Source: an uncultured Alphaproteobacteria bacterium (lineage in GTDB: Bacteria > Pseudomonadota > Alphaproteobacteria > RS24). Taken from it: a DNA stretch of 64,000 nucleotides. Where the stretch lies: positions 62,001 to 126,000 of the forward strand of contig CALKOC010000017.1 of the NCBI GenBank assembly GCA_938091085.1, read 5' to 3'. A program made the position numbers and the translations under genes. Under the pieces are notes generated by a model. It saw only the letters and a program-made list of their open reading frames with translations. It had not been told where the DNA came from and did no database searches. Positions 13,330 through 31,142 of this stretch are shown one piece after another (the stretch's first letter is position 1; every line of letters starts with the position of its first letter).

Positions 13330-13968
13330 ATGCAACTCGATTTTGAAAAAATACTGGAAATACTTTTCAGGACATTCGATAAAAATCCACCATTATGGAT
13401 TGGCGTCGGCTGTCTGTTTATTGCTTTGATTGCATTTCTTGTTTTCCGAGTGATTTTTTCCGGTAAAGGGAAAAAGGAAGCCAGAAAAGGCCAACCCGCT
13501 ATTTTAAACAGCACCCAATCTGAAACCAATGTCAATCCTGCCGTCCTGCCTGGCTTCATGAATGATATGGAAAATGCAAATAAACCTGAAGATGTTGTTC
13601 TAACCATTGACGATACGTTGACACCTGCAATCTCTACAAGCAATGAAGCCGCACAAGACGACGACAACAGTTTGCTGGAGGAATTAAGTATCCCACGACC
13701 GGGAACTGTTACCCCTCCGCCAAAAAGAGGCCTATTTTCAAAATCTGCATCCAATAACCAGCCCTCTGAACAAGCAACAGAGACTCCCAACGGGGGGGAT
13801 GTAAATGATGTGTCTACAAGTGGAAGCCCAAAAACAAATCTCACAGAAGATGAGTTGGTTGAGATTGAACGCAAACTCGTGGCCCTTCGCGAATTGCACG
13901 ATGCAGGCCTGATCGCCACTGAAATTTATCTCCTTAAAAGTCGAGAGTTTTCAAGAGACCTCGGATGA
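13330..13968 (+). CDS. Single-span membrane protein with SHOCT-like C-terminus
   Basis: 212 residues, not recognised by name. A membrane helix lies at about 24-43 (IGVGCLFIALIAFLVFRVIF), followed by a long polar, low-complexity region rich in Asn, Ser, Thr and Asp, and a C-terminal segment of about 45 residues (KLVALRELHDAGLIATEIYL) resembling SHOCT domains, which are short oligomerisation modules. Its stop overlaps the start of the next prepilin gene (ATGA), so it is translationally coupled to the pilus genes and may belong to the machine. Function unknown. Confidence 0.7.
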   Translation: MQLDFEKILEILFRTFDKNPPLWIGVGCLFIALIAFLVFRVIFSGKGKKEARKGQPAILNSTQSETNVNPAVLPGFMNDMENANKPEDVVLTIDDTLTPAISTSNEAAQDDDNSLLEELSIPRPGTVTPPPKRGLFSKSASNNQPSEQATETPNGGDVNDVSTSGSPKTNLTEDELVEIERKLVALRELHDAGLIATEIYLLKSREFSRDLG

Positions 13969-14591
13969 TGTTTCATCAACCTGACCGTGTGCCCGGAATG
14001 ATGGGTCCGCATCTTGGCGATAAAGGCTTCAGTCTCATAGAGCTTCTAACTGTCATTGTTATTATTGGCGTTATCAGCACTGCCTTATTTTCCATGGGTA
14101 ATAATATGAATATGCGGGTTGCTCGTATTACTGTGCAAACCCTACTCGATGAACAAGCGGTATTGGCACATGATGCCATTGCACGATCAGCCACGCAGGC
14201 CGGTTATGTTTCAGCGAACTCCCTCAACCCGACTATTACCAGAAGTACCGCAATCAATCTTGTGCAGTCCAATCATGTTCAGTTTTGTGGAGAAACAATT
14301 GACGGCGACAGGGTTTTTACTGAGTTTAGATTACAATCAACCTCAGAGGGCGGGGTTTTACAACGTAAAGTGAGTGACACCGATTGCGTAACTGACAACA
14401 CAGTCGAATGGGGCAATGTCAGCGAGCCGGTATTCTCACAAATTATTTTCTCACTGATTGATAGTGGCCCTGAAAAAAACATACTCAATATGTCACTTAG
14501 CCTCTCAAAAAATGTGCGCGGAAGCCGTGACGACGCAACTCTCAATCGTGACTATAAAGTTCCGCTCATAGCCTTGCTGGTAACACCGTAA
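13965..14591 (+). CDS. Prepilin-like protein (GspH/FimT type minor pilin)
   Basis: 208 residues. The prepilin peptidase site is GFSLIELL at residues 21-28, with the conserved Glu at +5 of the mature protein, followed by a hydrophobic helix (TVIVIIGVISTALFSMG). The leader is long for a prepilin (21 residues). The mature domain has two Cys that could pair (FCGETIDGD and DTDCV), as in minor pilins. It is coupled to the upstream SHOCT-like gene by a 4-base overlap and followed after 5 bases by another pilin-like gene. Likely a tip or initiation pseudopilin. Confidence 0.87.
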   Translation: MMFHQPDRVPGMMGPHLGDKGFSLIELLTVIVIIGVISTALFSMGNNMNMRVARITVQTLLDEQAVLAHDAIARSATQAGYVSANSLNPTITRSTAINLVQSNHVQFCGETIDGDRVFTEFRLQSTSEGGVLQRKVSDTDCVTDNTVEWGNVSEPVFSQIIFSLIDSGPEKNILNMSLSLSKNVRGSRDDATLNRDYKVPLIALLVTP

Positions 14592-14596
14592 TTATC

Positions 14597-15154
14597 ATGA
14601 ATACATCAGAGAAATATAAGTCAACAAATGTTAAGGCGCAGAATGGTTACATCACCTTAATTGCGATTGCTTTTATTGCGGTAGCAACCATGACCCTGAC
14701 AGCCTTAAATTCCAGAATTACGCAGTTCTCCAAATTGCGCTCTTTATCGTTGCAAGATCAATCTCTGTCAGTTCGGGCCGGAGAGGCACTAGAGCTTGGT
14801 ATGCGCAGAATGGGGTCGCTGGCGGATGAACTGGATGCCAATGAGACAGGCTTTACCTTACCCGCAGGTATTAGTGATTCCGACTTGTCTACGGATCGTA
14901 CAAAATGTCTGAACGGTATTCCGGAATTCGACGCTTCAACTGCAACCAATTATTTGGCAGGCTCGCGATTAAGTTATAACAAAATCGATAGTAGGTTTTT
15001 CATCCGCGATTTATCAGCCGGATCAACACCACGCAAATTTGGTATTTATGGTTGTGCCCTTCGTGGCAGTCGTGTGAAACGTTTCATGGCGGAATGGTCT
15101 TTTGATGCAACAGATGATGGCGTATTCAGTCTGGAGCGAACCAGACGCTTTTAA
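14597..15154 (+). CDS. Pilin-like membrane protein lacking Glu+5 (PilX/GspK type)
   Basis: 185 residues. The N-terminus has a basic leader, NGYITLIAIAFIAVATMTLTA, then a helix with Arg and polar residues, a layout like PilX/GspK pseudopilins. If cleaved after Gly17, position +5 is Ile instead of Glu; GspK-type proteins share this absence, consistent with a tip position. Two Cys (KCLNG and GCALRG) could form a disulphide. It is the third gene of the rightward run and overlaps by 4 bases, tail to tail, the convergent prepilin at 15151-15777. Confidence 0.72.
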   Translation: MNTSEKYKSTNVKAQNGYITLIAIAFIAVATMTLTALNSRITQFSKLRSLSLQDQSLSVRAGEALELGMRRMGSLADELDANETGFTLPAGISDSDLSTDRTKCLNGIPEFDASTATNYLAGSRLSYNKIDSRFFIRDLSAGSTPRKFGIYGCALRGSRVKRFMAEWSFDATDDGVFSLERTRRF

Positions 15155-15777
15155 TCACTTTTCCAGCTTGAAAAGAACTGTCTTGTTTTGGAGACCGTCC
15201 CTACACCGCGTGCTGTGAGGTTAATCGTAGCTTTATAATCCGCAAAAAGAAGATTCTTACCGATTGGTGACAAACCGGAAATATCACAACTGTCACCAAA
15301 CCCGACCTGTTTGCCCAACCCCGTCACCTCATAGCTGGCAACACGGCAATTTACGGCATTATCTTCAATCAAGAAAATATCACCCGTTTCAGGTATACCA
15401 ATGCCACCGACAACTATCAGGTAATTATCAGTTAGCGAAGTCGACGTTATACTGTAATCCGATAAGCCGGTTTTATCGGAAATATCAATCGTGGCATTCA
15501 CTGTGCTGAGATCATTACTTGTCAGATAGCTCGACCAATCATCAATAGACATGCTTGCAATGGAGTCACCATTCGCATGTCGAATTGCCAACTCATCCAA
15601 GAGCCCATTGGCAACCATTTCAACTTTGCTACGGGACTGACTTCTATAAAATTCGGTGGTACTCGCACCAAGAAGAGACATGACGCCGATAACAGCAATC
15701 GCCATCAAAGTGAGCGCAACGGCAACCTCGACGACGGAAAATCCGGCTTCATCAATTTTAAGTTCAGCGGACTGCAT
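15151..15777 (-). CDS. Prepilin-like protein (GspI/J, PilV-like minor pilin)
   Basis: 208 residues. The cleavage site is AGFSVVEVAVAL (Gly12/Phe13) with Glu at mature +5, followed by a hydrophobic helix with IAVIGVMSLLGA. It is the last gene of the leftward run secretin to prepilin; its start (15777) overlaps the secretin 3' end (15764) by 14 bases. Mature-domain Cys residues (NCRVASYE and SCDIS) may pair. Together with 13965 and 14597 it provides three minor-pilin-like subunits. Confidence 0.85.
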   Translation of the reverse strand: MQSAELKIDEAGFSVVEVAVALTLMAIAVIGVMSLLGASTTEFYRSQSRSKVEMVANGLLDELAIRHANGDSIASMSIDDWSSYLTSNDLSTVNATIDISDKTGLSDYSITSTSLTDNYLIVVGGIGIPETGDIFLIEDNAVNCRVASYEVTGLGKQVGFGDSCDISGLSPIGKNLLFADYKATINLTARGVGTVSKTRQFFSSWKSD

Positions 15778-18328
15778 TAGGCGGTGTCACACCGGTTCTG
15801 GGGGTAATGACAGTTGGCGCAAGGAAAATCACCATCTCATCAGATTGGAATAAATCATCCTCAGAACCGCCAAATAAAGGTCCAAGCCAACGCATTCCGC
15901 TGAGACCAGGTAACGACTCGCGATTACTTTGATTGCTTTCTTTGTATAGCCCCGCCAGCACAATCACATCACCGGGTGCAGCATCCATGCTCGTGGAAAT
16001 ATTATTGGACAATTGCGGGCTATTGGCATCCTCGCCAAGGAAACTGCTATCTTCAAAATTAATTTCAATTGTTACATGGTCATTAAGAACATTAATTGTT
16101 GGCGTGACGGTCAAGTTAAGACTGGCTTCCACAGGTTCATATTCAGTGACACTCGTGAAAATAGGTGTGCCTGTAACACTGTTGGTTTCACCGGTGGGCT
16201 CTTGACGGATAATTTCCCTGAAGCGGGTAACAGATCTTGTGATTGTAGCCGGCACGCTGTCTTTAGCTAGTACTGTCGGTGAGGATACTGTTCGGCCGAT
16301 ATTATTTTCTTCCATGAAATTAATCGTAGCAGATAAATCCCCTTCAGGTTGGTTCAAAACCATTGAATTGTTCAAACTTTGACGAGATAGATTGGAAACA
16401 AAATCCATCGTCGTGGTTGTCCCGGTAAAATTTGGAATAGCATTTATGCTGTTTTCCAACTTACGTTGCCAGTTACTTGTTACATTCACCATAAAGACCT
16501 CAACCAGAACCTGTTTGGCAGGAATGTCGAGATCTTCAATCAGACGCTTAGCAAGATCAGAGTCTGGCTTCAGACCTGTAAACACGACAGCCGTTTTATC
16601 TGTACTAATTTTAGGCGGTCTAAAATCGGCATCGGTCAGAAGTTGAGGTTCATTGGTCAACTCGGCAAGAAGGGGAGAGGACGCATCAGTCGCGCTATCT
16701 GCACCTGCTGCACCCTCAGATGGCATGCCTACAGCCTCGGCTTGAATAATCACCGGATTTTCTTCGGGGTAAAGTTGTTCAAAATACGAGTCGAGAGAGG
16801 TCTTAATGCCCTCTGCCTCTTGATAATAAATAGTAAATCTATCTGTGAAGACCGGCTCGCTTGTTCCAAGCGATGCATCTTTAACAACAGTCGCCTGTGA
16901 GAAAAGCGGGTCATTCAGCAGAGCCAGTTCGGCTTCATGATTTGCTGAATGTGCCAACGTCCCCGACAACATTGTTTCATCGTTCATTTGCGCTTCTGCA
17001 CGTTTCAAAGAGGCGTTAATGACATCCATCTGACCTTCAAGAATAAAAACCTCATTCTCCAATCGTCTCAAATCAGCTTCATAGGTTGCCCTTTTGGCAG
17101 ATATATCGGCCTGGCTGTTAAAGGCGACTTCCTTAATTTGTATAAGTGTTGAAGACATGCCGCTGGTGAGTTGATCATCCATAGTCAGAATTGACTCAAT
17201 ACTTTCAAGCCGGGCATCTTCGCCAACACGTTTGAAGTATTTTTCGTAAAAGGCAAACAGCTCAGCCCTTTGCTTCACGGCTTTCGCTTTGTCACGATGA
17301 ATTTTTGCGACTTTATTATGGGCTGTTGCAGCAGCAATAGCATCACGCATATGCGCCTCAAACTCATCCTTGGTAAAGAAGCGTGCCACCGACATGCTGA
17401 TGTCATAGGCCATTGCAATATCGTAATTATCGATGAGAATATCAAAGATATCGACGGTTTCTGCCCTCTGAACATTCAAAAAAACAGGTTGTTGGCTGGC
17501 CTTTAAGGCCGGTGAAAGATAGACCGACATCTTGGCTGATTTAGCGAGCGACTCCAGCGCAACAGGCAATGACAGTCCTGAAAAATTAATGCTCATCTCG
17601 CGCCCGGCAATAACCTTTTGTAACTCTTCACGCCGCGCCACGGACATTCCGGTGGACATACTTGACCCGACAAACAGAAAGCTTTCTTGTAAATCGACGA
17701 ATTGGTCATACTGCGCCAATTGGTTGCGCCCAAAAAAGGCAAGCTGGTCAGCTACATTACCGGCTGAGAAACCGATAACGGTTTGTTCTTTTAAATCAGC
17801 AATCTCATTATCAAGGTCGATCAGCGTCGCCAGAATGATTTTTTCAATCTCAAAACGATAGGCTTCTTCCTCCAAAGCCATTTCACGGCTCATTTTGCGC
17901 ATAAAATTGTTAAGATCGTTTTTCTTCTGATCGAGTTGACGTTGCTTCAATTCAACATTTCTTTGCCGTGCCGCCAGCGTTCGGCCGCCTGACAAATCAG
18001 CACCAGATATAAGACTGTCCCCGCTCCCTACCATGGATGCATTAAACGGGGAAAGCAGGTTGGACTCGTCTGCAGGCACACGGATTTGCAACGTCTGACG
18101 ACGGTTTGGCATGGTTCGCTGTTCTTGTAATTTGGCCTGAATTTTTTGCTTTTGGCGGTCATCATTACTGAGCTGTTCCGCATATAGCCGATCTTTGAAG
18201 AGGTCTTTAGCCCCATCAACCGTAAAATCCCTCTTAATGTTCGGACCACAGCCGAACATCAATGAGGAGAACAAAAACGCTGTTGTTACTCGCTTACTCG
18301 ATAACTTGTTACGCGATAATAAAATAAT
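15764..18328 (-). CDS. Outer-membrane secretin (PilQ/MshL-like) lipoprotein
   Basis: Outer-membrane channel for pilus extrusion. The first standard start is a TTG at 18274, but that falls inside a signal sequence: the frame upstream encodes ILLSRNKLSSKRV before AFLFSSLMFGC (lipobox). A GAGGGAG Shine-Dalgarno sequence (18334-18340) sits 5 bases before an ATT at 18328, so I give that non-standard start (854 residues), with moderate confidence. Domains: a coiled-coil N-region, an STN-like segment (INFSGLSLPVALESLAK), a second long coiled-coil section, an N-domain (PAKQVLVEVFMVNV) and the C-terminal secretin core (LNLTVTPTINVLNDHVTIEI, then PGDVIVLAGLYKE). It follows the PopZ-like gene. Confidence 0.88.
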   Translation of the reverse strand: MILLSRNKLSSKRVTTAFLFSSLMFGCGPNIKRDFTVDGAKDLFKDRLYAEQLSNDDRQKQKIQAKLQEQRTMPNRRQTLQIRVPADESNLLSPFNASMVGSGDSLISGADLSGGRTLAARQRNVELKQRQLDQKKNDLNNFMRKMSREMALEEEAYRFEIEKIILATLIDLDNEIADLKEQTVIGFSAGNVADQLAFFGRNQLAQYDQFVDLQESFLFVGSSMSTGMSVARREELQKVIAGREMSINFSGLSLPVALESLAKSAKMSVYLSPALKASQQPVFLNVQRAETVDIFDILIDNYDIAMAYDISMSVARFFTKDEFEAHMRDAIAAATAHNKVAKIHRDKAKAVKQRAELFAFYEKYFKRVGEDARLESIESILTMDDQLTSGMSSTLIQIKEVAFNSQADISAKRATYEADLRRLENEVFILEGQMDVINASLKRAEAQMNDETMLSGTLAHSANHEAELALLNDPLFSQATVVKDASLGTSEPVFTDRFTIYYQEAEGIKTSLDSYFEQLYPEENPVIIQAEAVGMPSEGAAGADSATDASSPLLAELTNEPQLLTDADFRPPKISTDKTAVVFTGLKPDSDLAKRLIEDLDIPAKQVLVEVFMVNVTSNWQRKLENSINAIPNFTGTTTTMDFVSNLSRQSLNNSMVLNQPEGDLSATINFMEENNIGRTVSSPTVLAKDSVPATITRSVTRFREIIRQEPTGETNSVTGTPIFTSVTEYEPVEASLNLTVTPTINVLNDHVTIEINFEDSSFLGEDANSPQLSNNISTSMDAAPGDVIVLAGLYKESNQSNRESLPGLSGMRWLGPLFGGSEDDLFQSDEMVIFLAPTVITPRTGVTPPNAVR

Positions 18329-18333
18329 CAGAA

Positions 18334-18340
18334 CTCCCTC
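18334..18340 (-). promoter_or_regulatory. Shine-Dalgarno sequence deciding the secretin start
   Basis: On the minus strand this reads GAGGGAG, overlapping the last base of the upstream PopZ-like gene's stop codon. It is 5 bases before an in-frame ATT (18328) and 2 before a CTG (18331); no ATG, GTG or TTG is in range. The TTG at 18274 has no such signal. Confidence 0.55.
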
Positions 18341-18735
18341 TACAGAGGCTTGCGGACATCAGCTATTTTACCGATTGCTTCTTTTACTACAGATTTCGCA
18401 ATATCCGCCATATGACGGTTAATCCAAGTTTCCAATAAAGGCTTAGTAACCTCAACCACCGCATTATGAATTGTTTCGCGTGTGGCATTTGTGTCAAACA
18501 CACTACTAAACCTCAGAAATTCGGCGCGTAGAGCAAGCGTTGCTTCTTCAGTGATAAGCAAATCAAGCCCCTCTAAATGCTTGGCAACCTCATCTTCAGT
18601 CAAATTGAGATTTTCTTCTGATGGGTCTGCTCCCTCACCAGTCTCTTCTCGGGATTTTTCAGCAGCTTGTTCTGCCGCCGCGAGCAAATCTTTAATCGAG
18701 GAGTGGAGCTCTTCCGATGTTCTTGTGTTAGCCAT
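18340..18735 (-). CDS. PopZ-like (DUF2497) protein
   Basis: 131 residues, acidic and disordered-looking at the N-terminus (SREETGEGADPSEENLNL), with a C-terminal helical part. The end, KPLLETWINRHMADIAKSVV, closely resembles the C-terminal signature of DUF2497/PopZ proteins, which self-assemble into a polar hub in alphaproteobacteria. Here it lies directly upstream of the secretin gene and downstream of the prepilin peptidase, all leftward. A role in placing the pilus machine at a pole is an inference from context. It is shorter than Caulobacter PopZ (about 177 residues), and the similarity is confined to the C-terminus. Confidence 0.7.
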   Translation of the reverse strand: MANTRTSEELHSSIKDLLAAAEQAAEKSREETGEGADPSEENLNLTEDEVAKHLEGLDLLITEEATLALRAEFLRFSSVFDTNATRETIHNAVVEVTKPLLETWINRHMADIAKSVVKEAIGKIADVRKPL

Positions 18736-18885
18736 AAATTATGTATCCATTACCAACTACTACATGATCCGGTTTACGCCGAATCAATCATAGTTCAGTA
18801 TATCTGGCCTGATGTCGTTTTTGGAGAAAAATCTCAATATTTCAGTCCTGAAACGCTTGAATACGAAATTTCTTTAACCCACCAC

Positions 18886-19704
18886 TTAGTATCCGAGGCC
18901 CAGAAGCGACGTAATATCAAAAAAATGTAAAAAAAGTGCCGCAGGAACTAAAAAACACCCAAATGGCAGGGCTAAAGTTGTTATACCGCTCTTTGGCGAC
19001 GTTTTAGTGCGATTACCAGACATTTTCTGGACAAGGATAAAGCAGATACCCGCCGCCGCGCCCACAGTGCTGGCCAGAAACAAAATCGGTAAAAGCATCA
19101 TTGGCCCAAGCCAAACGCCAAACATAGCCATGAGTTTAACATCACCAAACCCCATCCCATCTACGCCACGCCACAACCGATAAGACAAATTAATCGCATA
19201 AATCATAGCAAACCCTAAAATGCCGCCTATTAGCGCATCTTTGAGACTTGGAAGACCCGGCAATTCAGCAAGTACAAATATTAATCCAAGAGCCGTGCCC
19301 CCAAGCGAGGCGATATCGGGTATGTGAAACGCCTCCATATCAGTCAGAAAAATAATGCCGCATAAAATCAAAAAGGGTAAAAAAACCAAAGTAATCAGAC
19401 CATTAAATACAATTAAGTGCCCAACTAATAGTAACCCGGCCACAAACTCTACCCAGAAATAACGCGCCGGAATTGCCGCTTCACAACACACGGCTTTCCC
19501 AAAATGGCGTAACCAGCCCAAAAGTGGCACATTTTGATGCCAAGTTAGCTTTTTATCACACGAAAAACACCGTGACGGCGCCGACATCCAATCCTGACCC
19601 CTCACAATCCGGTAAGCGGCAGCATTGATGAAGCTACCAAAACAGGCGCCTACAAAAAAAGCACATATTAGAAAAAACCAATAATTTTCAACCATCTTCA
19701 ACAT
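18886..19704 (-). CDS. pilD: Prepilin peptidase / N-methyltransferase (A24 family)
   Basis: 272 residues, polytopic membrane protein. It cleaves the leader of prepilins before Phe and methylates the new N-terminus. The N-terminal domain has FGSFINAAAYRIVRG and cysteines in CFSCDKK and CCEA (part of the usual four-Cys zinc site). The two catalytic Asp are in LTDMEAFHIPD and GMGFGDVKLMAMFG. ATG at 19704; a second ATG at 19695 is possible. It serves the prepilins around it and is divergent from pilT (94-base gap). Confidence 0.93.
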   Translation of the reverse strand: MLKMVENYWFFLICAFFVGACFGSFINAAAYRIVRGQDWMSAPSRCFSCDKKLTWHQNVPLLGWLRHFGKAVCCEAAIPARYFWVEFVAGLLLVGHLIVFNGLITLVFLPFLILCGIIFLTDMEAFHIPDIASLGGTALGLIFVLAELPGLPSLKDALIGGILGFAMIYAINLSYRLWRGVDGMGFGDVKLMAMFGVWLGPMMLLPILFLASTVGAAAGICFILVQKMSGNRTKTSPKSGITTLALPFGCFLVPAALFLHFFDITSLLGLGY

Positions 19705-19798
19705 TGCTCCGCATGCAAGGAGAGCCTATAAATATCAGGAATTAAGGTTACGGTCATCTTGTTCACGCAAGGTTTATAGTAGAGGTGTTGCTTAAATA

Positions 19799-20809
19799 AT
19801 GGAAAATCAAATTTATAGTCTGCTCGACCAATTCACTAAAGAAAATCGCATTTCAGATTTCCATATTCGCGCAGGTGAACCACTTTCTGTGCGTGCGAGT
19901 GGCGATATCATTACTTACCCTGAACATGTGATTGAGCAAGATATGCTCGATCAAGTTTTCCGCCAAGAGTTGGGTGAAAAAGCCTATAAGGAATTTTGCG
20001 AAAAAAATGATGTCGACTTTGCCATCATGGTCGGAGAGCAAAGATTTCGTGCCAATGGTTATCGCACCATGCATGGGTGGGCCATGGTACTTAGAACAAT
20101 CGTCACCGAAGTGCCGAATATCGACCAGCTTGGCCTCCCCCCTGCCGTTCATAAGATTCTGAAAGAAAAATCTGGCCTCGTGCTGGTAACGGGGCAAACC
20201 GGTTCAGGTAAATCGACTTCACTGGCGGCGATGGTTAATAAAATTAACCGTGAACGCGCAGAGAATATAATCACCATTGAGGATCCGGTTGAATTTGTTC
20301 ATACACCGATCAAGAGCATTATTTCGCAGCGCGAAGTCGGGCGGGATACTAAAAGTTTTGCTGCAGCCCTTAAGGGGGCTCTGCGTCAAGATCCGGACAT
20401 AATTCTACTCGGTGAGTTACGCGATTATGAAACAGTGTCTATGGCTTTAACGGCTGCTGAAACCGGTCACTTGGTCTTTGGTACCCTACATACATCCGGC
20501 GCACCTGAAACAATTAACCGTATCATCGATGTTTTCCCAGCTGAGGAGCAAGCACAAGCTCGCTCACAGCTATCGCAATCTCTGCAACTCGTCATGACCC
20601 AACAATTGTTGAAAAGGAAAGGTGGAGGCAGAATCGGAGCTTTTGAGGTGATGGTTTGCGTTCCTGCTGTACGTAATCTAATTAGAGAAAACAAGATTGT
20701 GCAAATTAACACCTCCATGCAAACAGGCGCACAATTTGGCATGATTACAATGGATAAATATATTGAAGAACTGCACAAGCAGAATTTGATTGAGGATTTA
20801 CCAGAATAG
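19799..20809 (+). CDS. pilT: Type IV pilus retraction ATPase PilT
   Basis: 336 residues, typical length. Hexameric cytosolic ATPase that powers pilus disassembly. Walker A is GQTGSGKST at 132-140; the Asp box is ITIEDPVEFVH; Walker B is DIILLGELRD; the His box is ETGHLVFGTLHT. The C-terminal AIRNLIRE-type motif, needed for retraction in PilT, is present as AVRNLIREN, which separates it from GspE/PilB. It is alone on the plus strand between the divergent prepilin peptidase and the convergent pilin gene, from which a terminator hairpin separates it. Confidence 0.96.
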   Translation: MENQIYSLLDQFTKENRISDFHIRAGEPLSVRASGDIITYPEHVIEQDMLDQVFRQELGEKAYKEFCEKNDVDFAIMVGEQRFRANGYRTMHGWAMVLRTIVTEVPNIDQLGLPPAVHKILKEKSGLVLVTGQTGSGKSTSLAAMVNKINRERAENIITIEDPVEFVHTPIKSIISQREVGRDTKSFAAALKGALRQDPDIILLGELRDYETVSMALTAAETGHLVFGTLHTSGAPETINRIIDVFPAEEQAQARSQLSQSLQLVMTQQLLKRKGGGRIGAFEVMVCVPAVRNLIRENKIVQINTSMQTGAQFGMITMDKYIEELHKQNLIEDLPE

Positions 20810-20852
20810 TTTCCGCCAACAACTGGAACTTACCCAAAAAAAGAAATTATCG

Positions 20853-20882
20853 CAAAAAAAAGGGTGGCTATAAGCCACCCTT
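20853..20882 (-). terminator. Rho-independent terminator of the pilin gene
   Basis: A perfect 10-bp stem (20860-20869 with 20873-20882, AAGGGTGGCT / AGCCACCCTT) with an ATA loop, followed on the minus strand by a run of eight T (complement of 20853-20860). It lies between convergent pilT and pilin genes; the plus-strand side has only a weak T tract. Confidence 0.88.
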
Positions 20883-20903
20883 AATCTTATCCAGTTGAGG
20901 AGA

Positions 20904-21470
20904 TTAATCCCACTGAATTGTATTCTTTGTTTTTGTCCAGTGAGCGCCTGTGGAACCACTGACTGTCATTTCTGAACAGTAATAGACGGACAGGTCATAT
21001 GAACTACCTGAAGCTGATGTGTCATTTGCAATAACAACCTGACCATTTACACCTGCCGAGTCACCTGTAGTCGTGCATTCTTGATTACTGTCTGACGTAT
21101 CGGGATCATGGAAAACATCATGAGGTGTCGCAACATTGATTGCAGAAATCGCTGTGTTATTTTGGTTGTATGGGTTGTCTTTATTTTCAAAAGGGCCACC
21201 TGATGCATACAGACCCTGGAGGCATGTTAGCATTGTCGCATCGTCTGTAACTGAATTACAGGCACTGACTTCGTAGCTTTCTTTGTAGGCATAAGCTGAC
21301 AATGTTCTGTGAATATCTTCTGCACTAGCTTCTGTTGTATCCTTCTTGGCACTATCAATAAAACCTTGATAGTTAGTCAAACCGACCGCAGCAAGAACGC
21401 CAATAATGGCAATCACTACGAGCAATTCAATAAGACTGAAACCTTTTTCGTCTTTCCTAAGAATTTCCAT
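20904..21470 (-). CDS. Type IV prepilin, probable major pilin
   Basis: 188 residues. Short basic leader MEILRKDEKG, cleavage before Phe11, Glu at mature +5 (GFSLIELLVV), and a classic hydrophobic helix continuing into NYQGFIDSAKKDTTEASA. The mature part has several Cys (VSACNS, TCLQGLY, QECTTTG, YYCSEM), which could give disulphides including a C-terminal D-region. A strong AAGGAG site lies 7 bases before the start and it has its own terminator, both expected for an abundant subunit. Best candidate for the main fibre subunit. Confidence 0.9.
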   Translation of the reverse strand: MEILRKDEKGFSLIELLVVIAIIGVLAAVGLTNYQGFIDSAKKDTTEASAEDIHRTLSAYAYKESYEVSACNSVTDDATMLTCLQGLYASGGPFENKDNPYNQNNTAISAINVATPHDVFHDPDTSDSNQECTTTGDSAGVNGQVVIANDTSASGSSYDLSVYYCSEMTVSGSTGAHWTKTKNTIQWD

Positions 21471-22216: not shown

Positions 22217-22229
22217 ATAGGTCTGTTTT

Positions 22230-23459: not shown

Positions 23460-23872
23460 CCCATTTTGAGATGACAATCACTAATGATGTTTTGTCTCTG
23501 CGCCCCACTCGGCAGGCCTTGCGCGAGAAGATTGCGGATTCTGATTTTTCTTACCGGCTCAATGATATATTGCTGGCAACAGATGAAGCCTTACAAAATT
23601 GTATCACACATGCCTTTGCGCCAAACCTACAAGGTGACACAGATGGGGAGATTTTTATAAGCTTGGAAATTGGTGAGAGTGTGATTATCTGCATTGAAGA
23701 TACGGCACCCCCGGCAGACATTGCTGAGATAAAGTCACGCGAATTGGATGATGTCCGCCCGGGTGGACTGGGGGTGCATTTCATTAAAAGCCTCACCGAC
23801 GAGGTAACATGGAGTCTTAAAAATGGGCGTAACTGTCTGGAATTAAGATGGGAGAATACTCTACAGAAATAG
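23456..23872 (+). CDS. RsbW/SpoIIAB-like ATP-binding serine kinase
   Basis: 138 residues, single HATPase_c_2 domain. N box: ATDEALQNCITHAF (Glu and Asn for Mg-ATP). G1 region: CIEDTAPPADI. G2 region: RPGGLGVHFIKSLTDEV. It overlaps the phosphatase gene by 4 bases. In partner switches such a kinase phosphorylates the STAS protein and sequesters a target; no sigma factor is encoded nearby, so the target is unknown. It ends 7 bases before the convergent pilC stop, so this little operon is packed between pilus genes. Confidence 0.9.
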   Translation: MTHFEMTITNDVLSLRPTRQALREKIADSDFSYRLNDILLATDEALQNCITHAFAPNLQGDTDGEIFISLEIGESVIICIEDTAPPADIAEIKSRELDDVRPGGLGVHFIKSLTDEVTWSLKNGRNCLELRWENTLQK

Positions 23873-23879
23873 CTGAGTA

Positions 23880-25109
23880 TTATCCTGCCAAGTCCCCAGC
23901 TGAGAAAATCGGCAAATAAAGTGCGACCACCATAAGGCCAATCATCGCCCCGACAAAAACAATCATAATCGGTTCAATGATTGAGGATAGCCCTTCGACA
24001 ATCGCGTCAAACTCTTCTTCATAATATTGCGCAATAGAGCTTAACATTTCTTCCATATTACCTGTGCGTTCCCCAACAGCAAGCAATTGAGAAAAGGCGA
24101 GCGGAAAGACTTTCTCCTCACCAAATAAGATGGATAACTCAACACCGCTGAGTACACGTTCACGCACCCTGTCAAAGGCATTCATAAACAGAATATTATT
24201 CGTGACAGATTTGGCGACATCCAGCGTATCAAGAACACTCACCCCAGCTGCAAAAAGGTTTGCCATAAGAAGTGAGCCCCTTGCCACTGTTGATTTAATA
24301 ATAATATCACCAAAAAGCGGCAATTTAAGAAGCAAGAAACACCATAAGGTGAAATAAGGCTTTACATATTTCGACAGCATTCGATGTGCGAACACCACCC
24401 CGAAAGCAATCGACAGCACCCGCATGATATTGTTCATATCCGACACCCAGACACTCGCATCGACAATCATTTGGGTTGGGCCGGGCAATTCCATACCCAT
24501 GCCATCATACATTTGCTGGAAAGTTGGGACGACATTTGTCAGCATGAAAAAGCTAATACCCAATGTCACCGTTACCAGCACAACAGGATAAAACATCGCC
24601 GACTTTATGCCGGCTTTAATTTTGGCCTGTTTTTCAAGTATCTCAACCAGCTTGTCGACAAATTTGTCGAGCTGACCAGAAATTTCACCAGCCTCGATCA
24701 TATTGAGATAGACATTATCAAAGTGTCTATTCTGCCTTTTAAAAACCTGAGAAAGGGACTTACCGTCATTGAGGTCATCAATCATTTCCCCAATGGCGCG
24801 TTTCATATTCGGATTTTTGGTCTGGTCGGCAACCATGATAAGGCTGTCCAAAATCGGCAGCCCTGCACGAATCATCGTGGAGAGTTTCTTGGAAAACAGC
24901 ATGATTTCCTTGGCGGGAATATCCCCAAAAGGCCCCCAAGTAATATCCATATTCAGACCGGATTTTGATTTTGGTTTTTTCTCTTTTATTTTTTTGATGC
25001 GGATACGCTGAGCTCGCAATTCAGCGCGTGCTTTATTAACTGTAGGCGCATCCATCTGGCCTTTAATCTTCTTGCCCCGCTGGACACCGACATAAGCATA
25101 AACAGCCAT
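23880..25109 (-). CDS. pilC: Type IV pilus inner-membrane platform protein (PilC/GspF family)
   Basis: 409 residues, normal length. Two repeated GspF domains, each with cytosolic helices and membrane segments; examples are FSKKLSTMIRAGLPILDSL in the first and LLMANLFAAGVSVLDTLDVA in the second, with membrane helices FYPVVLVTVTLGISFFML and PIMIVFVGAMIGLMVVALYL. It couples the ATPases to pilin extraction. The start overlaps the stop of the upstream ATPase gene by one base (TAATG), so the two are translated together. Confidence 0.93.
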   Translation of the reverse strand: MAVYAYVGVQRGKKIKGQMDAPTVNKARAELRAQRIRIKKIKEKKPKSKSGLNMDITWGPFGDIPAKEIMLFSKKLSTMIRAGLPILDSLIMVADQTKNPNMKRAIGEMIDDLNDGKSLSQVFKRQNRHFDNVYLNMIEAGEISGQLDKFVDKLVEILEKQAKIKAGIKSAMFYPVVLVTVTLGISFFMLTNVVPTFQQMYDGMGMELPGPTQMIVDASVWVSDMNNIMRVLSIAFGVVFAHRMLSKYVKPYFTLWCFLLLKLPLFGDIIIKSTVARGSLLMANLFAAGVSVLDTLDVAKSVTNNILFMNAFDRVRERVLSGVELSILFGEEKVFPLAFSQLLAVGERTGNMEEMLSSIAQYYEEEFDAIVEGLSSIIEPIMIVFVGAMIGLMVVALYLPIFSAGDLAG

Positions 25110-26821
25110 TAATTAACCACCAAGACACGTGTATATTCTTCAATTGAAAGTATACCGTCGCGGATATATTCCTTTGAAATTTCTTGCATTGTTTTGAAGC
25201 CGTCTAAGCGCGCCGCTTCGAGGATTTCAGGTGCTTGAGCATTGGCAAGAATTTTCTCTTCAACCGGCGCAGTCACCCGCAGAACTTCATAAATACCTTG
25301 CCGACCTTTATATCCGGTTCCATTACATTCACCGCAACCACCACCTTTACGGAAATTGATATTTTCAATTTCATCGGCATCAAAACCGATATTTTCGAGA
25401 ATTTCTTCTGTGACCGTCGTATCAGGCACAAGACAAGACTGACAATTTTTCCGCGCTAATCTTTGTGCCACAACAAGCGACAAGGCTGCAGAAATCATAA
25501 AGCTTGGCACGCCCATATTGCTCAGGCGCGTAATCGCAGAAATGGCATCATTAGTGTGAAGTGTTGAAAGCAATAAGTGACCGGTTAAAGCCGCCTTAAC
25601 GGAAATCTCAACTGTCTGTTGATCTCTAATCTCACCCACCAGAATAACTTCCGGATCCTGACGCAAAAATGCGCGCAATATCGACTCGAATGTCAGCCCG
25701 ATTTTTTCATTGGCTTGCACTTGTCCAAGACCTTCCAAGTAATATTCGACGGGGTCTTCAGCCGTCATAATATTTTTACCAGGGTGGTTAATGTGCTGGA
25801 GCGCCGCATAAAGCGTTGTCGTTTTACCCGACCCTGTAGGTCCCGTGACCAATACCATGCCTTGGGGTGCAGATATCGCTTCAATAAGTTTGGTTAAGTC
25901 TTCATCCGAAAAACCAATTTTTTCAATGCTTAAAGCCGGATCACCTTTCAAAAGACGAATAACAATCCGTTCACCATTTTTACTTGGTAGAACATTAAAC
26001 CTTGTATCGACATCTTCGCCGTCTTTTGTTTTGAAGGTGATTGCCCCATCCTGCGGAATGCGCTTTTCAGAAATATCGCAATCAGCCAGAATTTTGAGGC
26101 GTGTGGTAACGGCAGAGTAATTATGGAACAGATAATTTGAATAAGAGTCCATAATTTCAAGCACACCATTTATGCGAAAACGTATTCGCGCGGTGTCACG
26201 AAAAGGCTCAATGTGGATATCACTTACATCCAAATCTATAGAAGCTTGCAGCATATCATCGCAAAATGCCGCAACGAGTGATGCATCCTCTGCATTCCAA
26301 CGTGGCGTCCGTCGGCGCTGAACCACCATCGGCTTATCACCATTTTTATCTTTGGCAGCTTCAGTCTCGGTCTGGAGATTTTTAATATCTTCTGTTTCAA
26401 GACATGCTTCAAAGTCGCTCAGCTTGATAACAAAAAACTCAACATTAAAATTTGTAAGGGCTTTAATTTGTCCGCCAAGAGTGGCTTTTGTAGGGTCAAC
26501 AGCGCCAACGCGCAAAAACCTACCTTCTTTGGCGAGCGGGATAATGCCCTCTTTTTTGATGAATTTAATCGGCAGACTTTTCAGTATGTCTTTGTCAATT
26601 GTTTCTGGTGTTACAGATTTGCGGCGTAAGGCATAGGCGCGGGACAAAATGGTCTGAATGACCTCCTCATCAAAACCGTTATGAATAAGACTGGAGAGAA
26701 CTTCCGGGCTTTTGCCATTTTGCTGGTTCATGACATTGCGCAATTCGTCCTGATCAAGCTGTCCACCAGCTTGTAAAATTCTCAAAACGCGATCCGCAAC
26801 TTCCTTACTATAGCCTATCAT
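25109..26821 (-). CDS. pilB: Pilus assembly ATPase (PilB/GspE/MshE family)
   Basis: 570 residues. N-terminal MshEN-type domain (about 20-145; SLPIKFIKKEGIIPLA) that in some homologues binds c-di-GMP, then the ATPase core: Walker A GPTGSGKTT at 327-335, Asp box TAEDPVEYYLEGL, Walker B VILVGEIRD at 392-400, His box TGHLLLSTLHTND, and a zinc-binding pair of CxxC motifs at 460/463 and 496/499. It powers pilus extension. Placed fourth in a leftward operon after the PilM-N, PilO-like and PilP-like genes, 11 bases after the PilP-like stop. Confidence 0.95.
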   Translation of the reverse strand: MIGYSKEVADRVLRILQAGGQLDQDELRNVMNQQNGKSPEVLSSLIHNGFDEEVIQTILSRAYALRRKSVTPETIDKDILKSLPIKFIKKEGIIPLAKEGRFLRVGAVDPTKATLGGQIKALTNFNVEFFVIKLSDFEACLETEDIKNLQTETEAAKDKNGDKPMVVQRRRTPRWNAEDASLVAAFCDDMLQASIDLDVSDIHIEPFRDTARIRFRINGVLEIMDSYSNYLFHNYSAVTTRLKILADCDISEKRIPQDGAITFKTKDGEDVDTRFNVLPSKNGERIVIRLLKGDPALSIEKIGFSDEDLTKLIEAISAPQGMVLVTGPTGSGKTTTLYAALQHINHPGKNIMTAEDPVEYYLEGLGQVQANEKIGLTFESILRAFLRQDPEVILVGEIRDQQTVEISVKAALTGHLLLSTLHTNDAISAITRLSNMGVPSFMISAALSLVVAQRLARKNCQSCLVPDTTVTEEILENIGFDADEIENINFRKGGGCGECNGTGYKGRQGIYEVLRVTAPVEEKILANAQAPEILEAARLDGFKTMQEISKEYIRDGILSIEEYTRVLVVN

Positions 26822-26832
26822 GTAGCCCCCAC

Positions 26833-28284
26833 CTAACGCGGCACCCCTTCGGTGCTACCCTTTCGGCGTTTAGCTTCATTTTCGACCAGCCGGTCAACAA
26901 TAGCCGGGTTTTCAATTGTTGGCACTTCCACACCGGCGGCTATCTGTCCGGCAGCTCCCGCGACAGCTGCCGCTTGTGCCTGACGTTGAGCCTGAGCGCG
27001 TGCCGCCAATTCTTCCTGATCAACTTCAGGGAGATAATCAATCGGCAAAGTCAGAAGATGATCTTGAGCATCCGTGACAATAATTTCCTTATGGGTGATT
27101 TTTACAACCGTCCCTTCAGACGCTCCCAGCACCTGCCCCTCAGACAGATTGTAGGTCACTGTCTTGGTCTCTTCAATTTTAATGTTTTTCTCATCCACAT
27201 CCCCTTCATAAAAAACAATCGGGGAAACGCGAACAATCGCCGTGCTGTCAAAAGTGTTCTGGCGTTCATTGCCAGGCACCCTTTTTACGGCATCGCACAT
27301 CAGCCCATCACTTTTAAGCAAAACACAATACGCCTCAGCATGGTTTTGTGATTGCATAGGACCAATGTCGAGGTGATATGATGTGCCGCCGCTTTTATTG
27401 ACCTCTTGCCGCAAGACCATATCGGAGTCGAGATAATGTCGGTAATCGGCGTAAAACTCTCGTGATTCGCGCAAGGCATCTTCAAGATTGTCAAAGCGGA
27501 AAAGCCGTACATAGGATTTGCGCGCCTTGCCAAGTGTTTCAATCCGGCTGTTATTAGCCGTATCAAAAGACACTGAATTGGCTTTCATATCCTCCATAAT
27601 TGTTCGGTCACGGATAGAGAGGGTCTGACCGATATACAGCCAGCCATTAGGTGCAATCTTGTTTCTTTTTTTCAATTCTGAGACAGGAATTTTATAAGTC
27701 CGCGAAAGTTTGGATAATGTGTCTCCCGGGCAAATATTATGAATAAGTGTGCCATTATCAACCGGTGAAACATATAGCTCGTCACGTCCAGCAAGACTTT
27801 CAGCTTTTGAAACACCGTTCATATCCGCAAGATCAAGCCTGTGCAGACGAAACTTGGCGAGAATATCCTTCTGGGTTTCGTCATCACCGGGACGATAAAT
27901 CCATCGTCTGCTATTAGGGTCAAAGAATAAAACCTCATTGGCAGTTTGAAGCCCAGCCGTGTTCACATGGATGACAGGCAACACTGGAGCTTCTGAAACC
28001 AGAATACCGTCCAGCCGATAGCGAGGTATGTCAAAAGCCTGACCAAAACCGGGCAGAACTGTTTGGCGGATACCCGTTTCGCCGTCTTCCGTCACGCTTG
28101 TGGTCTGAGCTTTACCATTTGAACGGCGTTGAAAACCTTCAAATGTTTCCAGCCGCTTTAAGCCGCGCACGAACGGGTCATCATATTCTGGCTGTTTTGC
28201 TTCCTGCGCGCGCGCATGGTGCGCACTCGTCGTGACACTTACAACCAACAAAAACACAGAGATAGGGTACAAAAGCCGACGCAT
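26833..28284 (-). CDS. PilP-like periplasmic protein with LysM and SPOR-like domains
   Basis: 483 residues with a signal peptide (cleavage near ARAQ, residue 26). After a region rich in polar residues comes a LysM domain (about 178-225: HNICPGDTLSKLSRTYKIP), a SPOR-like segment (about 254-337: VRLFRFDNLEDALRES and LDIGPMQSQNHAEAYCVLL) and a small beta-rich PilP/GspC-like region (about 380-420: GQVLGASEGTVVKITHKEII), then an Ala/Gln-rich tail. LysM and SPOR bind peptidoglycan, so it could anchor the alignment complex to the wall. Its start overlaps the PilO-like stop by one base. Domain calls are by eye. Confidence 0.72.
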   Translation of the reverse strand: MRRLLYPISVFLLVVSVTTSAHHARAQEAKQPEYDDPFVRGLKRLETFEGFQRRSNGKAQTTSVTEDGETGIRQTVLPGFGQAFDIPRYRLDGILVSEAPVLPVIHVNTAGLQTANEVLFFDPNSRRWIYRPGDDETQKDILAKFRLHRLDLADMNGVSKAESLAGRDELYVSPVDNGTLIHNICPGDTLSKLSRTYKIPVSELKKRNKIAPNGWLYIGQTLSIRDRTIMEDMKANSVSFDTANNSRIETLGKARKSYVRLFRFDNLEDALRESREFYADYRHYLDSDMVLRQEVNKSGGTSYHLDIGPMQSQNHAEAYCVLLKSDGLMCDAVKRVPGNERQNTFDSTAIVRVSPIVFYEGDVDEKNIKIEETKTVTYNLSEGQVLGASEGTVVKITHKEIIVTDAQDHLLTLPIDYLPEVDQEELAARAQAQRQAQAAAVAGAAGQIAAGVEVPTIENPAIVDRLVENEAKRRKGSTEGVPR

Positions 28285-29495
28285 TACTCTTTTCCGTTAT
28301 ATGCAACTGCCATTTTCAACCTGACTTTTAACAAATTTGATCCCGGTTTGGCAGTTAAATTCTCTTCAATGATGGCAACACTCTTCACTTCTTTTACAAA
28401 GATTTCTCGAATAGAGCGATACACTTCAAATCTGCTTTCTAACTCCACAGTAACTGTGTTGACCAGAACCGGCAGATTATTGCCAACTATAAATTTACTT
28501 TCAGCGTCCACATCATTGGTAATAGATATGATTTCAACGTCGAAACGCTCAAATGCCGCAAGGAAACGTTGTAATAAAAAGTCAAACCTCTCTCGATCAA
28601 CCAACGTCCCTGCTATATTTTCCGACCTTTTCTCCAGCAACTTAATCTGGGAGAGGAGATCACCTGAACGTTTGTTATTTTTGGCAATCTGACCTTGAAA
28701 AATCGTAATTTCATCAGCTTTTCGGTTATTTTCCGAAATAGTTGGCTGAATATAGGTAAAATTCAAAATCGGGGGAAGCGCAGCTACCAGCAATAGAACA
28801 AAAGCAAGAACTGCTGTTTTAGGAATAGGCGACGAGGACGTCTCAGCTTCAAAAATTTTCTTCACCACACCCGGTGCGTCAGCATCCGCAACGCCACTGG
28901 CCTGTCTGCTTTTTATTTTGTTTATCCCTGCGGCAAACCGTAATTTTAACTGCTCAAGATGTGAAACAGGGGCAAAATCATTATCCGCCTCATGAGTATT
29001 ATGCCCAACCTCTTCATCTGAAAGGGTGTCAAAATCTGGCAATGCATCCTGCATATCGCGAACAAGTGAAGACAAATCTCCTGACGCAGACGCCGTATCA
29101 GCATAATCCGCTTCGACATTTGTCATAAGATGCATCAACTCATCGCCGCCCCTATCGGGAATATCGAATTCTTTTGTTTGTATTCTGTCTTTATCGACTG
29201 TATCACTGCTAGCCGTCTCATCGACTGTGTCGTCATATTTCTGAGTGTCAATTTCATCGGAAGTAAAGGCGTCAAAAACCATAGCATTCAGTTCCGTCTG
29301 TTCTGACGGCATAATGTCCGCTTCAAAACTATGAACTTCTGTATCCTCGCCGCGTGCTTCACCATTCATAGGGAGCGTGACATATTTCCGGGTTGCTTTG
29401 TCAGTCGCCAAATCAGCCAGCATAGTCTGAGCATCATTAGACAAATGCGACAGTCCATCAGTTTCATCATGAAATTCTTTTTGCGATGATGACAT
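28284..29495 (-). CDS. PilO-like pilus alignment protein with long acidic cytosolic domain
   Basis: 403 residues. The first about 225 residues are acidic and low-complexity with no recognised domain; one membrane helix follows (about 226-246, AVLAFVLLLVAALPPILNF), then a coiled coil (about 255-300) and a small C-terminal periplasmic domain, as in PilO/GspM. Position between the PilM-N fusion and the PilP-like gene supports the call. The long acidic N-terminus is unusual for PilO, whose cytosolic part is normally short. It ends by overlapping the next start by one base. Confidence 0.72.
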   Translation of the reverse strand: MSSSQKEFHDETDGLSHLSNDAQTMLADLATDKATRKYVTLPMNGEARGEDTEVHSFEADIMPSEQTELNAMVFDAFTSDEIDTQKYDDTVDETASSDTVDKDRIQTKEFDIPDRGGDELMHLMTNVEADYADTASASGDLSSLVRDMQDALPDFDTLSDEEVGHNTHEADNDFAPVSHLEQLKLRFAAGINKIKSRQASGVADADAPGVVKKIFEAETSSSPIPKTAVLAFVLLLVAALPPILNFTYIQPTISENNRKADEITIFQGQIAKNNKRSGDLLSQIKLLEKRSENIAGTLVDRERFDFLLQRFLAAFERFDVEIISITNDVDAESKFIVGNNLPVLVNTVTVELESRFEVYRSIREIFVKEVKSVAIIEENLTAKPGSNLLKVRLKMAVAYNGKE

Positions 29496-29498
29496 CCG

Positions 29499-31142
29499 CT
29501 AACCCTTCTGACGTATCATAGCGTTAATGGTGAAACGGTAATAACCGCCAGTTTTTTGTTGTGTAATCGGTGCTTGTGTTGCGAGGCCGCTTTTCACCAA
29601 CTCTGCTGCAAATGTGTTGATAGCAGAACTGCTCAGCGACAACCCTTCCAATGTCACAGTACCATCGCTCTTAACGTTCAATTTTTGTAACTCGGCATCT
29701 TGCGGTAACATGGTCGCAAGGCTGGACATAAAAATGGTAAACCCCTTCGGCTCAGTAAAGTCACTGACTTTTTTCTCATTATCTCTGAGCTTATCGAGTT
29801 TTTTTGTGAGGCCTTTATATCTTATGGCTTCTGTCTGAGCCTCACCTTGTAACGCCTCATAGGTGGCAACCTTAGAGGAAGACCTGACAAGCTCCGGGAT
29901 ATTTGTAATACCCATCATGAGAACAGAGGCCACAAAAACAACACACACCGCCGCCATTAGCAATTTATTAACAGCTGCAAATTGTCGGAAAGTTCGGATA
30001 TTCTCACTGTTAGGCAGGAAATTGATATCCAAAAGTTTTTTATAGCGCTGGCTATCATCATAACCCGCAATATTGATGCTCTGCGTGGCGAGGCCCAGCG
30101 CCGAAGTAAATACGCTGCTATTATTAAAATAATCTACGAATTTGGCTTGGTCAGGTGGAACTTCAACATCCTCAAGCAACTCAATTTTCTTAAGCCGGAG
30201 ATTACCAACTCTGTCGCGCAAAAGCGTTTCAATATTGCCAATATTTTTATGCTCGCTCACCAACCAAAAGGATTTGATTGTAGGAAAGTTTTTTACTTCA
30301 TTGAGATAAGCAATCGCCTGATTGATATGCTCCCCAACCCTAATACCTACTTCATCCCAGAACTCACCGGATATATCGTCCAGCTCCTCAAGTTCCAAAA
30401 GTAATGCATCGTCAAATTCACTGACGGAAATTGGAAAAATTTCAATGCTGTTTTTAGTAAAGCCGATGACAACATTATGACCGGGACATAAATGGACAAT
30501 TAGTTGAGGTTTTTGTAAATCCTCAAATGATAATTTCGTGTAAATGCCATTTACCAATGAAAAAGCTTCATTCTCGATGTAAACGGGCATAAGTCCGGCT
30601 TCGAGCAACAAATCTGTGTAGCGTTTTACAGTTGTTTCAGGAATGCTTGAGAAAAGAACCGTTGTGCGGTCTTCATTCTCATTGGCGCTTAATATTTGAT
30701 AGCGCACAATCTTACCATCCAAATCGTTTAAGTCGGGATCATTATCCCCCCAAAAGCCTTCAAGTTGCGACTCCTCTTCTAATTCTTCCGGCAACATAAA
30801 GGGTAAATTAAGTATGCGGGTGTCAAATTGAGAAAAGGGGATAGATATTCCTGCATCAAGACCGGTAACATTGGCTTCGATACGGACTTGTCTAATCTGA
30901 TTGACCAGATACTCGAAATCTTCTTGAAGAGGGGCGGATCCTACATTTCGACCTAGCGACCAGGTAACAATCCGGTCAAGACGCCAGCCATCTGCGGAAG
31001 AGGCAACATCCATAGCGGGGTCAAGTTGCAAAACCGAGATAGAGTCAGGATGGATTTTAACCGCAACAATGTTATCCTGAACCGTATGGATTTTACTGGC
31101 CGCTTGAACGGCACTACTAAGAAACGCCTCGGACCTACTCAT
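29499..31142 (-). CDS. PilM-PilN fusion-like pilus alignment protein
   Basis: 547 residues. Residues about 20-350 look like the actin-like PilM/GspL cytosolic domain (NIVAVKIHPDSISVLQLDP, the segment TVLFSSIPETTVKRYTDLL and VIGFTKNSIEIFPISVSEF). From about 373 the PilN pattern begins (INFLPNSENIRTFRQF), with a membrane helix at 390-412, a coiled coil and a C-terminal ferredoxin-like periplasmic domain. In most type IVa systems PilM and PilN are separate genes. It is the first gene of the five-gene leftward operon; the PilO-like gene follows after 3 bases. Confidence 0.78.
   Translation of the reverse strand: MSRSEAFLSSAVQAASKIHTVQDNIVAVKIHPDSISVLQLDPAMDVASSADGWRLDRIVTWSLGRNVGSAPLQEDFEYLVNQIRQVRIEANVTGLDAGISIPFSQFDTRILNLPFMLPEELEEESQLEGFWGDNDPDLNDLDGKIVRYQILSANENEDRTTVLFSSIPETTVKRYTDLLLEAGLMPVYIENEAFSLVNGIYTKLSFEDLQKPQLIVHLCPGHNVVIGFTKNSIEIFPISVSEFDDALLLELEELDDISGEFWDEVGIRVGEHINQAIAYLNEVKNFPTIKSFWLVSEHKNIGNIETLLRDRVGNLRLKKIELLEDVEVPPDQAKFVDYFNNSSVFTSALGLATQSINIAGYDDSQRYKKLLDINFLPNSENIRTFRQFAAVNKLLMAAVCVVFVASVLMMGITNIPELVRSSSKVATYEALQGEAQTEAIRYKGLTKKLDKLRDNEKKVSDFTEPKGFTIFMSSLATMLPQDAELQKLNVKSDGTVTLEGLSLSSSAINTFAAELVKSGLATQAPITQQKTGGYYRFTINAMIRQKG

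Follow-up and report, generated by a model that had tools for sequence, protein, structure and literature searches.

Why should a three-gene regulatory module sit in the middle of a type IV pilus (T4P) gene cluster, and what would it control there? The question arises from a 64,000-base stretch of contig CALKOC010000017.1 (the window, meaning this whole stretch), which derives from a PS1-clade alphaproteobacterium with a draft genome of 1.7 Mb. Genes for a STAS protein, a PP2C phosphatase and an RsbW-type kinase lie here between the pilin gene and the pilC-pilB genes of a T4P cluster. Comparison with other genomes suggests that this trio is very probably a T4P-dedicated regulator of some kind, and it is rather likely, judging from sequence, to be a dedicated partner switch whose STAS output would act on the pilus side, probably on the extension machinery. 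Little regulation is commonly expected in streamlined marine bacteria; on this reading, members of the SAR11-like, SAR116 and PS1 groups would retain a phosphorylation switch with several inputs that serves a single machine.

The switch trio

An earlier note on this DNA placed a STAS, GAF-PP2C and RsbW-like kinase trio at 21638-23872, and both the open reading frame (ORF) coordinates and the Pfam domains agree. The STAS protein, of the anti-sigma-antagonist type (21638..22216, + strand; PF01740 2e-15, TIGR00377 over cut-off), is followed by the GAF-PP2C phosphatase of SpoIIE type (22230..23459, +; PF07228 6e-36, PF01590 2.6e-11) and by the RsbW/SpoIIAB-type serine kinase (23456..23872, +; HATPase_c_2 PF13581 5e-16, over cut-off), in which a box alignment finds the N, G1 and G2 boxes all present. 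The three genes form a tight operon, with a gap of 13 bases between STAS and phosphatase and an overlap of 4 bases between phosphatase and kinase; the pilin gene is divergent and 167 bases away, and pilC is convergent and 7 bases from the kinase gene. The overlap and the 7-base spacing, both claimed earlier, are seen in the ORF coordinates.

The features of an Rsb-type partner switch are present, namely a STAS acceptor-serine motif, RsbW-type kinase boxes and a SpoIIE-type PP2C. The window's STAS protein has a folded domain at approximately residues 1-100, which carries the DSSG motif, followed by a low-confidence acidic tail containing DDDLIA and ending in GLFKPGTF; in the AlphaFold2 model, block values of pLDDT, its per-residue confidence score, are 83-91 for residues 1-90, 71 for residues 91-100 and at most 54 beyond. 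The DSSG motif occurs in all 22 pilus-linked STAS sequences chosen for alignment. Between the window and its relative G010 (handles beginning with G denote genomes, and those with L loci), ratios of nonsynonymous to synonymous substitution (dN/dS) are 0.108 for STAS, 0.034 for PP2C and 0.070 for the kinase. The window's genome holds three STAS matches, the trio's and two in long frames (607 and 543 aa), and one RsbW-type HATPase over cut-off, the other match, under cut-off, resembling a sensor histidine kinase by eye; no second set was therefore found as a partner for the trio.

Conservation among PS1 relatives

The order was sampled with 28 genomes from six genera. A relative of the phosphatase occurs in 13 of them, at 14 loci, and T4P genes adjoin it at all 14; the pilin-STAS-PP2C arrangement is found at 13 of these loci. 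In G005, where the contig starts inside STAS, the order is PP2C, kinase, three genes, then PilC and PilB. Phosphatase and kinase form one protein in nine of the 12 rows of the PS1 alignment A2 (Pfam-checked in L030), and HsbR of the HsbR-HsbA system likewise holds phosphatase and kinase in one protein. Three genes separate the kinase from pilC in genera g4 and g6, which makes the pilin side the steadier neighbour. At L030:7172-11094 and L035:2121-6101, genes for MoxR, a protein with weak DUF58 matches and a TgpA transglutaminase stand between the switch and pilC, and a Wzy_C O-antigen-ligase-like gene adjoins the pilin gene in L031 and L034.

The PilM-PilN-like fused protein of the window (PilMN; 29499..31142, -; PilN 6e-8, PilM weak) was chosen as the marker for this pilus type. 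PilMN matches occur in 18 of the 28 order genomes, comprising all 13 PP2C-positive and five of 15 PP2C-negative genomes (Fisher 2.5e-4, relatedness ignored). These five are G009, G015, G022, G023 and G026. In G009 and G026 the locus lies on an unbroken contig and is decayed, without PilB, PilC or the trio, and the pilin, prepilin peptidase and PopZ-family genes persist; in G015, G022 and G023 the locus stops at a contig end.

A separate loss is seen in IMCC14465, a relative in NCBI's PS1 clade of Alphaproteobacteria, in which a single deletion of approximately 4 kb runs from PP2C codon 55-58 or thereabouts to PilB codon 133. The two alignments share 13 bases at the junction (L018:10153-10165). 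Unless an assembly fault accounts for the deletion, this isolate should be without PilC and most of PilB.

Recurrence in SAR11-like and SAR116 genomes

The trio recurs outside the order. Family f98, labelled SAR11-like here, appears to be SAR11, a very abundant group, and its genomes measure 0.8-1.6 Mb among the matches listed. STAS occurs in 22 of the 147 f98 genomes, and all 22 STAS loci are within the T4P cluster. Fifteen of them read pilin, one or sometimes two STAS genes, kinase, and then PilC-PilB in convergent orientation. Tandem STAS genes precede the kinase at L129:9491-10071, L136:9640-10220, L148:8436-9016 and L153:9563-10143, which suggests either a pair of substrates or one substrate accompanied by an output. 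The G534 locus is cut after STAS, with the kinase-PilC side present, and in G410 STAS-kinase lies near PilD, PP2C, pilin and PilC. Five further loci are dispersed, with STAS adjoining PilD. The kinase is near PilT with one small ORF between them in the four of these for which that stretch was covered (G124, G398, G321, G467; the fifth is G481), and PP2C is by the pilins in G124 and G398, so that the parts are scattered over a single T4P cluster. The position of the kinase near PilT indicates that the linkage outlasts break-up of the operon.

Co-occurrence with the marker was scored in a hand-chosen set of 61 genomes (from the SAR11-like family all 22 with STAS and eight of the 125 without it, and from the SAR116 family 31 of 61). 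Among the SAR11-like genomes PilMN occurs in 21 of 22 STAS-positive versus none of eight STAS-negative (Fisher 1.5e-6); on the contig of G534, the one STAS carrier without a PilMN match, secretin, PilB and PilC are present. In the SAR116 family STAS is found in five of 61 genomes. It lies by a pilin in G238, G599 and G592; in G551, G591 and, as a second copy, G599 it adjoins PP2C at a site away from any recognised pilus gene. A single stretch of G238 holds PilMN, secretin, PilD, PilT, pilin, a tailed STAS, PP2C and kinase, with pilC and pilB upstream. Among the 31 SAR116-family genomes PilMN is intact in five (G238, G599, G592, G591, G606) and fragmentary in four (G404, G327, G559, G576), and pilus-linked STAS is present in three of the five with intact PilMN. 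Alignments A3, A5 and A7 include some sequences that they then retrieve.

The search for conserved co-location that the earlier note had proposed, run as set, thus largely bore out its expectation, with 14 of 14 order loci, 22 of 22 STAS-positive SAR11-like genomes and three of the five SAR116-family genomes in which PilMN is intact. The co-location is more than chance by these counts, and its recurrence in three families supports the suggestion that the module may be linked to pilus control.

Sensor inputs of the phosphatase

The sensor parts of the pilus-side phosphatases vary. GAF is found in the window, SAR116 G592 and SAR11-like G500, REC in G398 and CHASE2 in G516. At 10 of the 22 SAR11-like loci there are 14 proteins of 702-745 aa with a PP2C match; 11 of these 14, from nine loci, were scanned, and all 11 show a full-length ammonium transporter (PF00909) fused to a SpoIIE-type PP2C. 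The fusion is probably present at all 10 loci, near pilin genes (L129:3070-7561, L131, L132, L134, L135, L144, L148, L150, L151, L152). In the four of these proteins compared by eye, the two pore histidines of the ammonium transporter domain are kept. A PP2C match of some kind occurs at 19 of the 22 SAR11-like loci, and STAS with the kinase is the more constant core of the switch.

These parts suggest the following scheme. The kinase would phosphorylate STAS at the conserved DSSG serine, and the sensor-bearing phosphatase would strip it off again once the appropriate condition is signalled by its input domain (GAF in the window; REC, CHASE2 or the ammonium transporter in relatives). The output would then be dephosphorylated STAS, acting on the pilus side, where it would most likely bind the PilB/PilC extension machinery instead of freeing a sigma factor. 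The phosphorylation chemistry is assigned here by protein family, and the direction of the switch is presumed. Contact of STAS with PilB/PilC, suggested by position and by shared absence in decayed loci, is conceivable though somewhat doubtful.

What the switch acts on

The classical role of RsbV and RsbW would have the kinase or STAS target a sigma factor, or some other protein of transcription, so that the switch controls transcription of the pilus genes and the pilus is its regulon. The operon and the pilin gene diverge, as this would favour, and HsbR-HsbA and CrsR-CrsA are described as acting through RpoS and FlgM-FliA (PMC6482189). The window's genome has a FliA-like factor adjoining FlhF- and MinD-like genes and two ECF-like factors (by eye), and G238 has a FliA-sized match. 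However, the window holds no sigma70_r2 match, as the earlier note had observed in saying that no sigma factor was nearby; the six of the genome lie elsewhere. SAR11-like carriers have exactly two sigma70_r2 proteins each (14 of 14), in frames of approximately 610-635 and 300-310 aa, that is RpoD- and RpoH-sized only, the smaller one in G430 reading as RpoH by eye. With only the two sigma-70 factors in these 14 carriers, a classical switch on an alternative sigma factor is unlikely. The PS1 carriers G016 (90% complete) and G025 have four and five sigma matches respectively, none FliA-sized, and IMCC14465 has lost the kinase and most of the phosphatase yet keeps seven sigma matches. Taken together, control through transcription is rather unlikely. 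FliA/FlgM was considered as a shared target; G016, G025 and the SAR11-like carriers speak against it, whereas the window's own genome (G000), G010 and G238 do not; FlgM was not searched for.

Alternatively, the switch could act indirectly through a second messenger, either by way of cyclic-di-GMP, which the MshEN domain of PilB would sense, or by way of the neighbouring CHASE2 cyclase. HsbA reportedly acts on the diguanylate cyclase HsbD, which would be a precedent, and cyclases are at hand: the window, L027, L036 and L037 each have a CHASE2 cyclase next to the T4P genes, and in G591 pilC is accompanied by a cyclase-like match. However, the one CHASE2 protein scanned from the SAR11-like family has PP2C, not a cyclase, as its fusion partner, and this route seems improbable.

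The STAS tail was considered as a docking element. C-terminal PGTF occurs in all 12 aligned PS1 STAS proteins, with a DDDLIA-like stretch also in the tail, and this tail, predicted to be unfolded, looks like a tether with docking peptides. The tail of SAR116 G238 ends in LKPGDFS, and the long SAR11-like tails end in KIKFKR (4 of 4). Since most SAR11-like carriers are without it, the tail is taken as a lineage feature. C-terminal PGTF was consequently rejected as a general docking peptide, the SAR11-like tails ending in KIKFKR or being missing, and STAS length or tail was rejected as a mark of the pilus-linked kind, as length fails to separate pilus-linked from other trios.

For the switch acting directly on the pilus motor, there is a bolder version, less likely than not, in which dephosphorylated STAS would license or brake PilB/PilC without any sigma factor and, in SAR11, one phosphatase of the switch would be an ammonium transceptor through which nitrogen supply controls pilus activity. 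Simple marine cells probably use the switch to decide on deployment of the fibre. If this is true, when and why planktonic cells use pili becomes testable, with nitrogen sensing as a candidate trigger, and a non-sigma target is added to partner switching; if the direct-motor version is true, nitrogen supply governs pili in cells that rank among the most abundant in the ocean.

Distribution in the class and origin of the association

The class sample comprised 385 alphaproteobacterial genomes, with a PP2C match accepted at E 1e-40 or better. Such matches occur in 22 genomes, the window's own among them. Those linked to the pilus are the window's, G180 (PP2C beside PilD), G238, G124, G398 and G321; the locus of G034 is cut at 3.1 kb by a contig end and was counted neither as linked nor as away. 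PilMN occurs in 11 of the 385 genomes and is intact in seven, and tailed STAS proteins occur in six, all within these seven (Fisher 1.6e-12, relatedness ignored). A match in a 200-aa frame in G337 is a 115-aa STAS without recognised pilus genes.

Several observations weigh against a switch dedicated to the pilus. In 15 of the 22 PP2C-positive class genomes the genes lie away from recognised pilus genes, meaning a fetched stretch without a BLAST match to the window's pilus proteins, some stretches being short contigs (L075, L077, L084). Thirteen of these have the trio (STAS of 107-137 aa) with no pilus gene recognised nearby (G028, G029, G063, G079, G085, G138, G151, G190, G287, G300, G363, G367, G377), and in G174 and G351 the matches lie apart, with no pilus gene near either. 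G049 (71% complete) has intact PilMN and no STAS match, and no pilus-linked STAS was found in SAR116 G591 and G606, both with intact PilMN. FliA-sized sigma matches occur in the carriers G000, G010 and G238, and the main SAR11-like STAS is tailless (nine short sequences). Loss of the trio together with pilB/pilC may be mere adjacency; as they are neighbours, their co-loss is not used as proof of function. Lastly, in trees of hand-picked rows (29 kinases, 35 STAS) the pilus-linked rows are not united, with three label changes in the kinase tree (at least two forced by starred branches) and two in the STAS tree. One origin of these rows is found in 0% (kinase) and 2% (STAS) of bootstrap trees.

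Several of these points bear on whether the genes are chance neighbours, an ordinary alphaproteobacterial switch having landed by pilus genes and been carried along. The earlier note held that a trio away from pilus genes in relatives would make the link chance. Such placement was found in the 15 class genomes and in three of the SAR116 family (G599 among them, with another copy linked to the pilus), and the trees show no single pilus-linked origin. Nevertheless, recurrence in three families with differing gene orders and co-occurrence with the pilus make chance highly improbable; among class-sample and SAR116 genomes with trio genes away from the pilus, PilMN matches occur only in G591 and G599. 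A single origin of the pilus-linked kinase was set aside, as the tree gives no support and long branches make either answer unsafe. The association may be old and since diverged, or such switches may have been recruited to the pilus repeatedly; repeated recruitment, if true, would be stronger evidence of function.

The surrounding pilus locus

The T4P set in the window includes pilin, prepilin peptidase, PilB, PilC, PilT, secretin and PilM/N. Next to the trio, the pilin side carries a prepilin that is major-pilin-like by position (20904..21470, -; N_methyl 2.4e-9, over cut-off), and the other side the PilC platform protein (23880..25109, -; PilC/GspF PF00482 2.5e-56) and the PilB extension ATPase with its MshEN domain (25109..26821, -; PF00437 1.2e-118, PF05157 4.6e-8). 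Then follow the proteins that the earlier note called PilP- and PilO-like, of which the first, at the PilP position, shows LysM only (26833..28284, -; PF01476 7e-11) and the second is PilO-like by position, without a Pfam match (28284..29495, -). Two small genes adjoin PilMN at 31294-32315 and are also found in L018 and L039; by eye they encode a membrane protein (without a Pfam match over cut-off) and a peptidase-like protein.

On the far side of the pilin gene are the PilT retraction ATPase (19799..20809, +; TIGR01420 over cut-off), the A24 prepilin peptidase (18886..19704, -; PF06750, PF01478), a PopZ-family (DUF2497) protein (18340..18735, -) and the secretin (15764..18274, -; PF00263 2e-22). 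The label PopZ-like holds by PF10691 (2.8e-7, over cut-off), not by NF052660 PopZ_fam, which is under cut-off; this gene is retained at L039 and L043, two decayed loci that have lost pilB and pilC. A mixed-strand region (13330..15777) contains a 212-aa protein without a Pfam match, two prepilins (at 13965, +, N_methyl over cut-off; at 15151, -, N_methyl under cut-off) and a protein in the PilX position (14597, +), with a like gene order in L018, L027, L032, L036 and L037. Upstream of the pilus genes lie a CHASE2-adenylate/guanylate cyclase and a metallo-beta-lactamase-fold protein (10095..13240, +; PF05226 5e-51, PF00211 7e-20, PF12706), both also in L027, L036 and L037; the cyclase-like match in SAR116 G591 (L140) comes after pilC.

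Domain matches uphold the designation of the locus as a T4P, but calling it MSHA-like is imprecise. For the secretin, GspD, PilQ and MshL models all give matches under cut-off, and membership of MSHA was rejected on the MshL model TIGR02519 (59.6 bits against a curated cut-off of 250.2), the only Msh protein compared. The pilus gene list given earlier stands for secretin, peptidase, PilT, pilin, PilC, PilB and PilN, and is weaker for PilM and the prepilin at 15151.

Comparison with known systems

Judging by titles, none of the open-access papers found on partner switching and T4P deals with an alphaproteobacterium. The T4P term is absent among the matches listed for STAS, anti-sigma and RsbW, and nothing was found there for a Pelagibacter pilus with anti-sigma or for an ammonium transporter with SpoIIE, a wider search for the latter giving histidine kinases only. 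The pilus-embedded, ammonium-linked switch was not found in this literature, so that "undescribed" is limited to it.

In SAR11, T4P genes have been noted beside an adhesin gene (PMC12636525). Partner switching affects pilus-based motility in Nostoc punctiforme, through HmpU-HmpV-HmpW (PMC8256260), which is likened to the present switch by description. That system is cyanobacterial, a sigma role is left open there, and the passages on it mention neither a position by pilin and pilC nor an ammonium-transporter input, both features of the present loci. STAS itself has been proposed as the output for HmpV (PMC8256260) and for RbaV (PMC3999984). According to its abstract, RbaV-RbaW-RbaY of Rhodobacter capsulatus is also an alphaproteobacterial switch with no cognate sigma factor found and with STAS as the determinant regulator, although its output is gene transfer agent expression and the abstract does not mention a pilus (PMC3999984). 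HsbR-HsbA and CrsR-CrsA, as described in PMC6482189, share a STAS output whose partner depends on phosphorylation, but have a response-regulator input and act on RpoS and FlgM-FliA. The ammonium sensor kinase Ks-Amt5 similarly fuses an ammonium transporter domain to a signalling enzyme, in its case a histidine kinase and not PP2C, with no mention of a pilus in the passages concerned (PMC5764959). In Bordetella, BtrU-BtrV-BtrW is a partner switch acting likewise on a secretion machine, the machine there being type III secretion (PMC8256260).

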